NCBI RefSeq assembly: GCF_000058485.1
Contig: NC_008278.1
Span: forward strand, 1,110,962-1,174,961
From: Frankia alni ACN14a
GTDB lineage: Bacteria > Actinomycetota > Actinomycetes > Frankiales > Frankiaceae
Direction of reading: 5' to 3'
Length of the DNA stretch: 64,000 nucleotides
Of this stretch, positions 11,931 to 18,123 are shown one piece after another; the stretch's first letter is position 1, and every line of letters starts with the position of its first letter. Below the pieces are notes generated by a model, which did no database searches, was not told the DNA's origin, and worked only from the letters and a program-made list of their open reading frames with translations. Both the position numbers and the translations under genes were made by a program.

Positions 11931-13931
11931 CTAGTGAGCGGCGTGGGCCGTGATCGGCGTGCTGCTGGACCGTTGCGCCGGAACCCCCGACGACGTGGAC
12001 GCCGACGACGTGGTGGCGGTCGAACCGGACGAGGACGAGGACGGGGCGCTGAACCAGGAGCCGAGCAGCGGCTCCACATCGATCGGATGGAACGGCAGCG
12101 CACCGGTGCCCGGGGACGCGGTGGTGCTCGGCGTGGCCGACGGACTCACCGCCGGGCTGGTGGCTTCGCCATCGTCGGACGCCGACGGGGTCGCCGTGGT
12201 GGTCGGGGCCGCCGTGGCGGAGGCGCCCGTCACGGTGCCGGCGCTCGGCGCGATGGACCGTAGATCGGTCGGCCCGGTCGTCGGCTGGTCCCGTGGAGTC
12301 AGGGAGATGATCGGAATCGGGGCGGTGGTGGGGCCCAACGCGACCGTGGTGACCGCACTCGACCCCGACGCGCCGGAACCGCCGGTCCCGCTGCCCGCTC
12401 TGTCGGCGCTCGGCGCAAGCGCGGCCCGCGGCGGCGAACTCTGCGTGCGGTCCCGCGACGCCTGGGACTGCGACGCGCCGTAGGCGAGGGTGTCCGTGCC
12501 GCTGTACTGGATCCGCGACGCCTCGCCGGCGTTGGGGACCGCCGCGCCGCCACCCCCGTCGCCCCCGAAGGCCACTCCGGCGACCAGCGCCGACAGCCCG
12601 GCCAGCGAGGCGGTGCCGGCGGCGGCCAGGCGCACCCGCCCGTTGCCGCGCCGGATGGGGGCGCGATGGGCACCCGGCACACGCTCGGCCGGCGCGTGGT
12701 TGCGGGCGGCCGCCGATGGCCCGCTGCGCCGGGGACCGGTGGGCGTCCGGCTGGTGGTGGGCATCCGGCTGGCGGTGAAGGATGCGCCGAAGGAGGGGCT
12801 CATCAGCCGCGAGGAGGCTGCGAACCGGGAGCCCTGCTCCCAGGAGGGCACGTCGTGCGCCGGGAAGTCCGACCATCGGCCGTCCTCGAACCGGCCGTCC
12901 TCGTCGAACTGGCCGTGCTCGAACCGGCCGTCCTCGAGCCGGCCGTCCTCGAGCCGGCCGTCCTCGCCGAGGCGATCGCCCGCGGCGAACCGGTCGTCCT
13001 CATCGAACCGATCGTCCGGGTAGAACCGGTTGTCCGCGGCGAAGCGGCCGTCAGTGTCGAACTGGTCGTCCGCGTGGAACCGGTCGCCCTCGTCGAACTG
13101 GTTGCCGGCGTCGAACCGGTCGGCGTCGAAGCCCGCGTTCGGGGACGGGCCGGTGTGGAAGCGATCCTCCGCGTCGAATCCGTCCGCGGCGTCGTACCAG
13201 TCGTCCGAGTCGTGCCATGTGCCTGTTCCGTACACACCGTCCGCGCCGTACCGGTCATCGTCGAGCCGGTCGTCCGCGGGGGACTGGCCACCTGCCACCC
13301 CGTCGCCGTCGCCGTCGAACCGGCTCTCGCCCTGGAAGTCTCCGAGCGAGTCGGCCTCGTACCGGTCGGCCTCGTACCGGTCGGCGTCGTACCGGTCGGC
13401 GTCGTACTGGTCGGGCTCATCCTGGTCGTTGTCGTACCGGTCGTCGTCCTGCCGGTCGGTGCCGAACCGGCCGCCCGCGGTGAATCGGCCGTGTCTCGGC
13501 CAGCCACGCCGCTGCCCGTCCGCGGGGTGGTCGTCCCAGCCGGGTGCGGACTGACGGGCCTGGCGGGCGGTGGTGCTGACCGACAGCGGGCCGGTGAGGG
13601 TGTCGAGCTCGCCGGGTGGGGCGAACGGGGGCCGCGGCGGGATTCGCCGCACGGTCGGGGTGGCTGCGGGGCCGTACCAGCCGCCGGAGCGGTCCGAAGT
13701 GTCCCAGGCCGCGGCGGTCCCGGTGGGGGGCGTGGGAGCGTAGGCACGCTCGTCGAAGCCGAGCGGGGTCCGGGCGGCCGGACGGCGCGGGGCGGCACCG
13801 CGGGAATGCCGGCCGGCGGAGTGGCTACCCACGGTGGCCCCCGGCGGGCAGCAGCGCCTCGGGCCCGGCCGGCCGGGCATCATGGCCAGCCCGAGAGCAG
13901 GGCCGTCGCAAACAGGCCGCCTCGGCGGCAT
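11931..13931 (-). CDS. Unrecognised single-pass membrane protein with Asp/Arg/Phe repeats
   Basis: I do not recognise a family. The 666 predicted residues divide into a basic Pro-rich start (1-150), an acidic repeat region (about 160-355) where D-R-F, D-R-Y, G-R-F and D-R-L recur every 5-8 residues (for example FDEDDRFAAGDRLGEDGRLE), a Ser/Arg-rich linker, one hydrophobic segment (about 433-456, after RRGNGRVR), and a Ser/Thr/Ala/Pro-rich C-terminus. Basic residues before the hydrophobic segment predict a cytoplasmic N-terminus and an outside C-terminus. The minus strand is preferred because its Asp, Arg and Phe codons nearly all end in C or G as in neighbouring genes; the opposite frame reads as biased Val/Pro repeats. 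The ATG start is uncertain, as the first 50 residues look atypical. Confidence 0.7.
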   Translation of the reverse strand: MPPRRPVCDGPALGLAMMPGRPGPRRCCPPGATVGSHSAGRHSRGAAPRRPAARTPLGFDERAYAPTPPTGTAAAWDTSDRSGGWYGPAATPTVRRIPPRPPFAPPGELDTLTGPLSVSTTARQARQSAPGWDDHPADGQRRGWPRHGRFTAGGRFGTDRQDDDRYDNDQDEPDQYDADRYDADRYEADRYEADSLGDFQGESRFDGDGDGVAGGQSPADDRLDDDRYGADGVYGTGTWHDSDDWYDAADGFDAEDRFHTGPSPNAGFDADRFDAGNQFDEGDRFHADDQFDTDGRFAADNRFYPDDRFDEDDRFAAGDRLGEDGRLEDGRLEDGRFEHGQFDEDGRFEDGRWSDFPAHDVPSWEQGSRFAASSRLMSPSFGASFTASRMPTTSRTPTGPRRSGPSAAARNHAPAERVPGAHRAPIRRGNGRVRLAAAGTASLAGLSALVAGVAFGGDGGGGAAVPNAGEASRIQYSGTDTLAYGASQSQASRDRTQSSPPRAALAPSADRAGSGTGGSGASGSSAVTTVALGPTTAPIPIISLTPRDQPTTGPTDLRSIAPSAGTVTGASATAAPTTTATPSASDDGEATSPAVSPSATPSTTASPGTGALPFHPIDVEPLLGSWFSAPSSSSSGSTATTSSASTSSGVPAQRSSSTPITAHAAH
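13350..13425 (-). repeat. 15-bp tandem repeats in the Asp/Arg/Tyr part of the repeat protein
   Basis: About five copies of a 15-bp unit close to ggtcggcgtcgtacc (plus-strand reading) encode the DADRY/EADRY series on the minus strand. A second cluster of 15-bp units lies near 12895-12970 and encodes the EDGRL/EDGRF series. Both keep the reading frame. Confidence 0.85.
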
Positions 13932-14109
13932 GGTCGGTGCCCACCGACGAACGCGGACTGGCCGCGGACCGCGGGCTGAGGGCTCGATGACCCCGCACTA
14001 CGCCTCCGGCTGCATTGGTGTTGTGAGCCCCCCCGGGCCACACGGCACCCCCACGCGCAATCTGACCTTACCCGACCTGATCGGAGCAGCAAATACCGGA
14101 CTTATCCGA

Positions 14110-14130
14110 ACTAACTAGTTAAAGGTTAGT
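14110..14130. promoter_or_regulatory. Operator-like palindrome in an AT-rich patch
   Basis: A perfect 10-bp palindrome taactagtta (14112-14121) sits inside a wider inverted repeat ACTAAC-N9-GTTAGT (14110-14115 and 14125-14130). It lies 17 bases before a GTG that has a good ribosome site, and about 180 bases upstream of the minus-strand repeat protein start. The shape fits a dimeric repressor site, but no regulator gene is adjacent. Confidence 0.4.
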
Positions 14131-14147
14131 GCGAGGGAGGATGGTCC

Positions 14148-14489
14148 GTGGCCGGAACGGCGTCGTCGGACCGCTCCGCAGCCCATTCCGGCGCATGGTC
14201 GTGCTCCATCGGGACGAGTCCTGGCCGCCGTGGCCGTCCGGGCGCCGACCCGGTGGGCATGCGTGGGCGGGGCAGGCCGGGCCGTTCGCGCCGAAGCTCG
14301 CTCGGCAGCCGGCCGCGGCCGGCGGGACGGCGGGATGGTGAGACGGCAGCGCGCGGGCCGGCGGGCGGAGTCCTGGCCGGGCACCGCTTTCGGGGTCCCC
14401 CGCTGGTCCCCGGGACGGCCGTTCGGGTGCCCCCGGGGGGATCCCCAGAGCGGCCGGGGCGCCGGAACGCCGGGGCGCTGAAGCGCTGA
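14148..14489 (+). CDS. Possible small hypothetical protein
   Basis: A GTG at 14148 is preceded by GGGAGG at 14135-14140 with an ideal 7-base spacing, and the frame runs 113 codons to a TGA. The product is Arg/Gly/Pro-rich and resembles no family I know. Third-position GC is lower than in neighbouring genes, and its composition is what random GC-rich DNA would give. The ribosome site and the upstream palindrome are the only positive evidence, so this may not be a gene. Confidence 0.2.
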   Translation: MAGTASSDRSAAHSGAWSCSIGTSPGRRGRPGADPVGMRGRGRPGRSRRSSLGSRPRPAGRRDGETAARGPAGGVLAGHRFRGPPLVPGTAVRVPPGGSPERPGRRNAGALKR

Positions 14490-14513
14490 AGCGCAGAAGC
14501 GCCAGAATGCCGA

Positions 14514-14550
14514 AAGGCCGGGGCGGCGTCGATGCGCGCGCCCCGGCCTT
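14514..14550 (-). terminator. Probable korAB terminator
   Basis: A perfect 12-bp inverted repeat (AAGGCCGGGGCG at 14514-14525 and its complement at 14539-14550, loop 13 bases) lies about 140 bases beyond the korB stop. Read on the minus strand, the stem is followed by TTTCGG. Confidence 0.6.
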
Positions 14551-14688
14551 CCTACCGGTCTGCTGGTCGGCCGGGCCACTCGGCTGGCCGAGCGGCCCGG
14601 CCGATCCGGTGGGCTCCCGGATCGGGTTGGCGGTCGGCCGGCGGGTGCCGGCCGGTAGTGCCGACCAGACCCGGCGGCCACACGTGGA

Positions 14689-15746
14689 TCAGTCGATGGT
14701 CCAGGTCTCCCCACCGGAGATCAGCGACATGAGGTCGCCCTCGCCCTGCCGGGCCCGAGCGTCGCTGATCTGCGTGTTGAGCGCCTCGTCGTACGTGGGT
14801 GCGTCGACGCTGCGGAAGATCCCGATGGGCGTCACCCCGTGCGTGTCGCCGGTGAGCCGGGACAGCGCGAAGGACTGGCTCGGGTCCGCCGCGGCGGCGT
14901 CGTGGACGAGGACGCCGGGGCTGCCCGCGGGCACGACCTCCAGGCTGCCGTCCGCCGCGCGGCGGATCGCCTTGTCGCCCTCGGCGCCGAAGACGAGCGG
15001 CTCGCCGTGGGTGAGCTTCAACGTCGCGTCGTCGCGGCTCGACCGGTCCTTCAGCGTGTCGAAGGCGCCGTCGTTGAAGATGTTGCAGTTCTGGAAGATC
15101 TCGACGAACGCGGTGCCCGGGTGCTCCGCCGCGGCGCGCAGCACCGAGGTCAGGTGCGCCCGGTCGGAGTCGATCGACCGCCCGACGAAGGTGGCCTCCG
15201 CACCGAGTGCCAGCGACACCGGGTTGTACGGCCGGTCCAGCGAGCCGAACGGCGTCGACTTGGTGATCTTGCCGACCTCGGAGGTGGGCGAGTACTGGCC
15301 CTTGGTCAGACCGTAGATCCGGTTGTTGAACATGAGGATCTTGAGGTTGACGTTGCGGCGCAGCGCGTGCAGCAGGTGGTTGCCGCCGATGGACAGCGCG
15401 TCGCCGTCTCCGGTGACCACCCAGACCGACAGGTCCGGTCGCGAGGTGGCGAGGCCGGTGGCGATCGCCGGCGCACGACCGTGGATGGAGTGCATCCCGT
15501 AGGTCTGCAGGTAGTACGGGAACCGCGAGGAGCAGCCGATTCCCGAGATGAAGGCGATGTTCTCGCGGGCGACCCCGAGCTCGGGGAGGAAGCCCTGGAC
15601 GGTGGCGAGGATGGCGTAGTCACCGCAGCCCGGGCACCAGCGCACCTCCTGGTCGGAGGTGAAGTCCTTGCGGCTCTGCTGGGCCGGCGCGGCCGGCACC
15701 AGGTCGAGCAGCCGATTGCTGATACCGGTGTGGTTCGTCGTGACGG

Positions 15747-15750
<4 letters not shown>
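14689..15750 (-). CDS. korB: 2-oxoacid:ferredoxin oxidoreductase subunit beta
   Basis: This is the thiamine-diphosphate and iron-sulfur subunit of an enzyme that converts 2-oxoglutarate (or another 2-oxoacid) and CoA to acyl-CoA and CO2, reducing ferredoxin. The 353 residues contain WCPGCGDYA (C39, C42), GIGCSSRFPYY (C73) and FQNCNIFND (C221), the four cluster cysteines, and the thiamine-binding GDGDALSIGGNHL from residue 114. Start is a GTG that overlaps the korA stop by 4 bases; the open frame upstream of it is only a shadow of korA. Actinobacterial KorAB usually acts as an oxygen-tolerant 2-oxoglutarate oxidoreductase; substrate is inferred. Confidence 0.95.
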
Positions 15751-17633
<1,883 letters not shown>

Positions 17634-18123
17634 CTTCAGTAACCTCCTCGGGTACCACACCAGCCTACCGGCTGTAGCAATGGGACGCGTGCGGCGTGCC
17701 GGGCCGACCGATCGCACGCGGTGGCCCGACGATCAGACCCGAATCTGTTGATCTCGGCGTGCTCTGGCTGAGAGTGATTGCCTGTCAACTCTGTGTATGT
17801 CTGCCCCTGTCCTGACGGTCGGCTGCTGCCACCCGTGTCCGGATGGTCGGGTGCGTCGCCCGCCCGGCGGGTGCGGGCGGTACGGATTCAATACGCTTCC
17901 GGGCGGCTTTCCATACAGATCTGGTCGGGCGGCCTGTCGGCGAATAGACACATTCGCAACTTTGTTTCGATTACTCCATGTGCGCGACTCGCTATCTTCC
18001 GTTGCCGCCGCGGTGGGAGCCGCACCACGCAGCGTATCGGTCGCAAGGCACGGGCCGGATGGTGCCGAGGTGCCAGCGCGACCGGCGCGACCGGCGCGTG
18101 GGCGGGGGAGCAGCATCGCAGCC
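17634..18123. other. Divergent intergenic region between korA and the DUF2520 gene
   Basis: This 490-base stretch must hold the promoters of both diverging genes. It is locally less GC-rich near 17730-17800 and 17930-18000. I could not pick a pair of promoter hexamers with convincing spacing on either strand, and no tRNA or repeat is visible. Confidence 0.5.

Follow-up and report, generated by a model that had tools for sequence, protein, structure and literature searches.

The chromosome of Frankia alni ACN14a carries, on the minus strand between nuoN/polyprenyl synthase and korB, an open reading frame (11931-13931 of the window, by which we mean the whole 64,000-nucleotide stretch analysed, NC_008278.1 positions 1,110,962 to 1,174,961) of 666 amino acids from its first ATG, much of which is taken up by an Asp/Arg/aromatic repeat, and the question it raises is which parts of such a protein matter. 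An earlier note proposed an undescribed membrane protein of no known family, with one membrane segment and a Ser/Thr-rich outer tail, defined by its repeats. Comparison among orthologues upholds the frame, the layout and the want of a known family, and suggests that conservation lies not in the repeats but in the membrane segment, in a handful of short motifs and in a mini-gene upstream (features in Table 1).

The minus-strand frame is confirmed as coding. Its GC content by codon position is 0.70/0.66/0.90, and third-position GC (GC3) lies at 0.86-0.95 in all 15 sliding windows, with the neighbouring nuoM, nuoN, polyprenyl synthase and korA at 0.90-0.94; GC3 of 0.89-0.93 is found also in three plus-strand ORFs that share one frame, and stops break that frame. 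The whole main frame is open in 28 of 32 orthologous loci, the other four (L103, L105, L110 and L112) ending at contig ends, and no broken main frame was found among the 32. A particular antisense frame runs unbroken through 6 of the 28 uncut loci and is broken in the other 22; each of the remaining four frames is broken in all 28. Third positions carry more substitutions than either of the other two between the window and the Frankia locus L001, both over residues 417-510 (41 versus 18 and 18) and overall (131 versus 93 and 73). The idea of a high-GC artefact hiding a real gene on the opposite strand, which could draw on the long ORFs in other frames and on the six loci with an open antisense frame, is ruled out to near certainty by frame openness, by the codon positions of substitutions and by dN/dS values below 1 in the conserved blocks.

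The true start is most likely the GTG codon of residue 34, because the conserved block of the relatives begins there, as [V/M]G[S/N]HSAGRH; the first 33 residues of the listed ORF are therefore probably not made. ATG replaces GTG at the equivalent position in L113, L144, L145 and L146. The frame of the window itself stays open for 55 codons upstream of residue 34, and the choice of start rests on the relatives: an N-terminal extension is ruled out by L095 and L152, in which the frame opens 12 codons and one codon, respectively, before that point, with no ATG or GTG between.

Table 1. Features of the locus in window coordinates; the assignments of start codon, topology and hairpin are predictions.
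Feature	Coordinates	Strand	Remarks
Revised CDS, Frankiaceae-restricted single-pass membrane protein	11931..13832	-	633 aa with most likely GTG start, stop included; conserved [V/M]G[S/N]HSAGRH; GC3 0.91
Ser/Thr/Pro/Ala/Gly-rich outer tail	11934..12560	-	IQYxG, TTAPIPIIxLxP, TDLR and LPFxPxPIDVEPL conserved in genus Frankia
Conserved membrane segment LAAAGTASLAGLSALVAGVAFGG	12561..12629	-	highest Kyte-Doolittle window 1.72; dN/dS of surrounding block 0.12-0.28 (6 pairs)
Basic juxtamembrane block GAHRAPxRRGNGRVR	12630..12674	-	alignment
FTASRMP motif, with variants across genus Frankia	12759..12779	-	alignment
Asp/Arg/aromatic repeat region, 211 residues, net charge -47	12837..13469	-	residues 155-365; F. 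alni group only
18-bp tandem DNA repeat, 13.5 copies	12886..13119	.	overlapped by a 15-bp array at 12877-12966
15-bp tandem DNA repeat, 8.1 copies	13350..13470	.	tandem-repeat search
Conserved cytosolic motif PPGELDTLTGPLSVSTTARQ	13560..13619	-	orthologue alignment
Short upstream ORF, 57 codons, GTG start	13825..13998	-	TAG stop overlaps main start codon as GTGGGTAG; 28/28 assessable loci
GGAGG ribosome-binding site of upstream ORF	14003..14007	-	-175 from main start; invariant in two sets of 18 loci each
Conserved 5' leader GTGGGGGTGCCGTGTGGCCCGGGGGGGCTCACAACACC, possible hairpin	14017..14054	-	near-identical in g1 and g5

The gene is a single-copy possession of one family. Residues 412-560 as query gave exactly one open-frame match in each of 13 genus genomes; of 35 Frankiaceae genomes, 32 were matched by a profile built on the membrane plus outer block and 33 by one built on the membrane block; and outside the family one of 358 other genomes of the class matched (E 2.4e-4, a 111-aa frame), in a sample of 393 genomes in which 18 candidates were scored per genome and weak relatives may be missed. 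In the two family genomes with no match, the polyprenyl synthase lies at a contig end (G013) or assembly is 63% complete and no close polyprenyl synthase is found (G015). Among the best 80 of 570 loci with polyprenyl synthase relatives, L001 was the only one to match the membrane-block profile significantly (next E 0.24). The window protein belongs to no family in Pfam or NCBIfam scans; its PDB sequence matches are at chance level (E 0.38 or worse), and a Pfam scan of seven relatives returned a single sub-threshold match (Cementoin, 20.7 bits versus 27). It is an undescribed membrane protein that occurs across the Frankiaceae.

The usual gene order is polyprenyl synthase, gene, korB. The gene adjoins the polyprenyl synthase in all 12 further genus loci and has korB on its other side in eight, contigs ending in the other four; of 19 loci from other genera, 15 have both neighbours and four have one, three of these near a contig end and the fourth being L149. 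At L149 the retrieved stretch has korB and no polyprenyl synthase next to the gene. The neighbourhood gives no function, because 17 of the best 80 loci likewise have polyprenyl synthase close to kor genes, with other content between and no relative of the protein. NuoH is FRAAL1039 in one paper (PMC5768760), and a paper on the nodule proteome (PMC8951365) calls a korAB pair, FRAAL1050-1051, saprophytic; the korAB at 14689-17717 (minus strand) appears to be that copy. By these tags the gene should be one of FRAAL1047-1049, because it sits between nuoN/polyprenyl synthase and korB. A search of main texts, mostly outside subscription journals, yielded no published locus tags beginning FRAAL104 and, on tandem repeats and intrinsic disorder in Frankia, two disorder surveys.

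The orthologue alignment begins with the start block [V/M]G[S/N]HSAGRHSR and PPGELDTxTGPxSxST, continues through a linker of free length to a FTASRMP-like stretch (in genus Frankia), GAHRAP with its basic run and the helix LAAAGTASLAGLSALVAGVA, and ends in a tail with the motifs IQYxG, TTAPIPIIxLxP, TDLR and LPFxPxPI/VxVxP; in genus g7 the start block is missing from seven of the eight loci, which retain the later motifs. Elsewhere in the genome the N-terminal motif has 17 further matches, the best at E 0.14. As the earlier note had it, there is a single membrane-like segment (residues 435-457), followed by a tail rich in Ser, Ala, Thr and Pro: Kyte-Doolittle hydropathy peaks at 1.72 over residues 435-453, the next separate maximum is 1.37 at residue 526, and a basic block precedes the segment, giving one hydrophobic segment with a positive-inside flank. 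Hydropathy of the segment among orthologues is modest (1.6-2.0), and it may therefore be cleaved or not inserted. In each of the six pairs compared, the membrane/juxtamembrane block ranks first or second in constraint among the parts of the protein (dN/dS 0.12-0.28), with the tail at 0.32-0.54 and the N-terminal part, loose as well, at 0.35-0.80. A single-sequence AlphaFold model is unfolded (mean pLDDT 37), in agreement with predicted disordered arms; such models are poor evidence, and the membrane segment shows no helix in it either.

The repeat is genuine as a pattern. Residues 155-365 contain 25 Arg/Gln-[Phe/Tyr/Leu/Trp] steps, as against a mean of 5.1 and a maximum of 13 in 5000 shuffles, and 15 [D/E]-x-[R/Q]-[FYLW] units, as against a shuffle mean of 1.7 and maximum of 7, in a chain with neither Lys nor Cys; the regularity of these sticker residues thus exceeds chance. 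The earlier observation of about 25 Asp/Arg-flanked aromatic or Leu repeats is upheld, and the spacing of 5-8 residues given for them is roughly right: most steps are 5 or 6 residues apart, in two runs with irregular stretches between. The DNA underlying the repeat forms a minisatellite of 15- and 18-bp units, whose codons are nearly uniform.

What did not survive is the repeat as the defining element. The linker that it occupies could be measured in 27 of 32 orthologues, the exceptions being four cut loci (L091, L093, L098 and L100) and L160, in which the GAHR mark is missing. Four of these 27, every one a member of the F. alni group, have at least nine [D/E]x[R/Q][FYLW] units; in the remaining 23 the number is 0-2. 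L093 visibly carries the repeat though cut. Relatives with linkers of 10-84 residues retain the rest of the layout, and the linkers of g5 and g6 are neutral to basic and 10-119 residues long. The sticker array is therefore not conserved among the orthologues, and the comparison points to an add-on in one branch, not to the conserved core of the protein. Five members of genus g7 (L148-L150, L154 and L155) have acidic, Tyr/Trp-rich linkers, unlike the F. alni repeat in sequence and possibly independent. Draft contigs of several Frankia genomes break off inside the gene (L091, L093, L098/L001 and L100); assembly may fail there because of the repeat or the GC content, and variation in length may go unseen.

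Rates of change place the repeat among the fastest parts of the gene. When the window is compared with three relatives from the F. alni group, the repeat has the highest dN/dS twice and is level with the N-terminus and tail once; in the pair L104-L106 it is exceeded by the N-terminus (0.80 versus 0.57). The four measurable F. alni-group orthologues nevertheless share its composition (Asp+Glu 20-26%, Phe/Tyr/Trp 9-13%) while pairwise repeat identity in the group falls to 39-70%, and weak selection on composition is therefore possible. The likeliest role for the repeat is that of a spacer, its physical character being of little or modest importance.

Two other readings of the repeat have to be weighed. 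The first, that a minisatellite expanded in frame within a disordered linker and changed nothing important, would account for the 15- and 18-bp arrays, for linker lengths of 10 to 352 residues among the 27 orthologues and for repeat dN/dS values of 0.45-0.71 in five pairs (L108-L109 on 49 codons) and 1.02 in a sixth (window-L111, on 17 poorly aligned codons); dN/dS is nonetheless below 1 in the five, composition is kept in the clade, and the different acidic-aromatic linkers of some g7 members hint at recurrent selection for composition, which together leave near-neutrality a serious contender, if a rather unlikely one. The second reading, of a selected sticker-and-spacer scaffold in the F. 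alni group, in which Arg and aromatic stickers on an acidic chain make the protein self-associate at the membrane, draws on the excess of steps over shuffles, on the composition maintained through sequence turnover and on the same dN/dS values below 1, but it has to contend with the 23 of 27 measurable orthologues that lack nine units, one of them with a linker of 10 residues, with the high dN/dS within the gene and with the tandem DNA origin; moreover, the net charge would be expected to oppose self-association unless counter-ions or basic partners helped. We consider such a scaffold very doubtful; the idea fits the F. alni group and cannot be a family-wide function.

The disordered region of Caulobacter PopZ is acidic. 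According to a study of that protein (PMC9512792), this region tunes assembly, a possible likeness to the Frankia repeat, and PopZ condensates need a helical oligomerization domain; the Frankia protein differs in having a membrane helix, with no oligomerization domain found, and a repeat restricted to one lineage.

Upstream of the main gene is a short ORF (uORF) with its own ribosome site and a stop codon overlapping the downstream start in all 28 assessable loci (32 were looked at and four are cut by contig ends; the loci are related and do not amount to 28 independent events). A scan that required no overlap (CGGAGG preceded by a G-rich stretch and followed, after a short spacer, by [A/G]TGC) gave 29 matches in 27 loci. 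The ORFs opened by 27 of the 29 matches end on [A/G]TGG[G/C/T]TA[G/A] (NTGGNTAR), the TAG or TAA overlapping the main start codon; the other two are stray second matches in L143 and L159. Widening the spacer by one base and requiring overlap added L160 and completed the 28. The uORF has 14 distinct lengths, from 18 to 69 codons, and its stop persists across the GS, GN, AN and VS variants of main-protein residues 2 and 3. Because its substitutions are about even over codon positions in 15 pairs, the peptide seems free while frame and stop are kept, and a conserved peptide product is unsupported on the same ground. The Arg+His content of the uORF frame is 0.26, versus 0.17 and 0.17 in the other two frames, an excess that V-T-rich DNA in another frame could cause.

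Ahead of the uORF lies a leader of about 38 nt that is nearly identical between genera g1 and g5, recognizable in g7 and different in g6 and g3; its core has one occurrence in the genome within two mismatches. A leader hairpin is plausible. A compensatory change is seen in one of 14 consensus pairs, in an alignment of 18 of 25 leaders that left out near-duplicates and the dissimilar g6 leaders and in which a short g7 insertion is apparently misplaced; the leader fold is not more stable than shuffles (z-scores 0.23 and -0.62), and folds of the start region give no signal (z -0.38 and 0.48). An Rfam search of 13700-14700 with an E-value limit of 5 returned nine matches; none of them lies at the leader or comes close to the gathering score. 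A promoter scan found no sigma-70-type match. A simple pattern match places a stem resembling a terminator, with T-rich sequence after it, at 14096-14109 (minus strand), between korB and the leader.

The main gene is probably coupled translationally to the uORF by reinitiation, to judge from the layout alone. One review (PMC12548453) describes overlaps of the -8 nt class as enriched among overlapping gene pairs and states that coupling is reduced when overlaps are longer; bacterial regulatory uORFs and coupled pairs, as described there and in a second paper (PMC12121999), resemble the Frankiaceae arrangement in the short ORF, its own ribosome site, the stop over the next start and the -8 nt class. 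The Frankiaceae uORF differs in that its length and peptide vary freely, in the conserved leader ahead of it and in that no amino-acid or drug stalling code is evident.

Taken together, these observations lead us to give an even chance to a Frankiaceae-specific single-pass envelope tether with translation coupled to the uORF and with the repeat as a fast-changing spacer. The single-copy, single-pass protein would have its N-terminus inside and its C-terminus outside: a disordered cytosolic arm would carry short binding motifs, the conserved small-residue helix would cross the membrane, and the disordered Ser/Thr/Pro-rich tail would extend into the cell wall, the protein most likely acting as a tether or adaptor that links a cytosolic partner to the envelope. 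In the F. alni group a minisatellite would have lengthened the cytosolic arm, its repeats encoding an acidic, aromatic, Arg-spaced spacer. Synthesis would depend on termination at the uORF, with its own ribosome site and conserved leader, and reinitiation at the main start. Motif conservation in a disordered protein may have causes other than binding.

Actinobacterial single-pass envelope proteins with Ser/Thr/Pro-rich outer tails combine a basic juxtamembrane stretch, one helix and a low-complexity tail. The Frankia protein resembles them in all three; it differs in that no catalytic, sortase or wall-binding domain was found in it and that its motifs are seen only in Frankiaceae. The predicted inside-membrane-outside layout and the short motifs conserved on both sides would also suit a transmembrane signalling protein, sensor or anti-sigma-like, whose outer tail senses the wall while the cytosolic motifs hold a regulator, but Pfam and NCBIfam reveal no sensor or anti-sigma domain and the flanking polyprenyl synthase and korB are not regulators, which makes signalling improbable.

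The envelope tether could be elaborated, speculatively and with little expectation that every part holds, into one whose synthesis is gated by a nearly sequence-free, obligatory uORF that follows a deeply conserved leader, with gain and loss of tandem repeats retuning its cytosolic arm; the acidic-aromatic arm of the F. alni group and the linkers of that composition in some g7 members would then be independent solutions to the same physical need, for example clustering at growth sites of the hyphal, vesicle or sporangium wall.

Single-copy, present in 33 of 35 Frankiaceae genomes and all but absent from the rest of the class as sampled, this gene is a candidate for the traits that make these hyphal, sporangium-forming actinobacteria distinctive. 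It shows which parts of a disordered membrane protein stay (the membrane block and short motifs) and which drift (the repeat), and its leader and uORF layout provides a concrete, testable regulatory unit.
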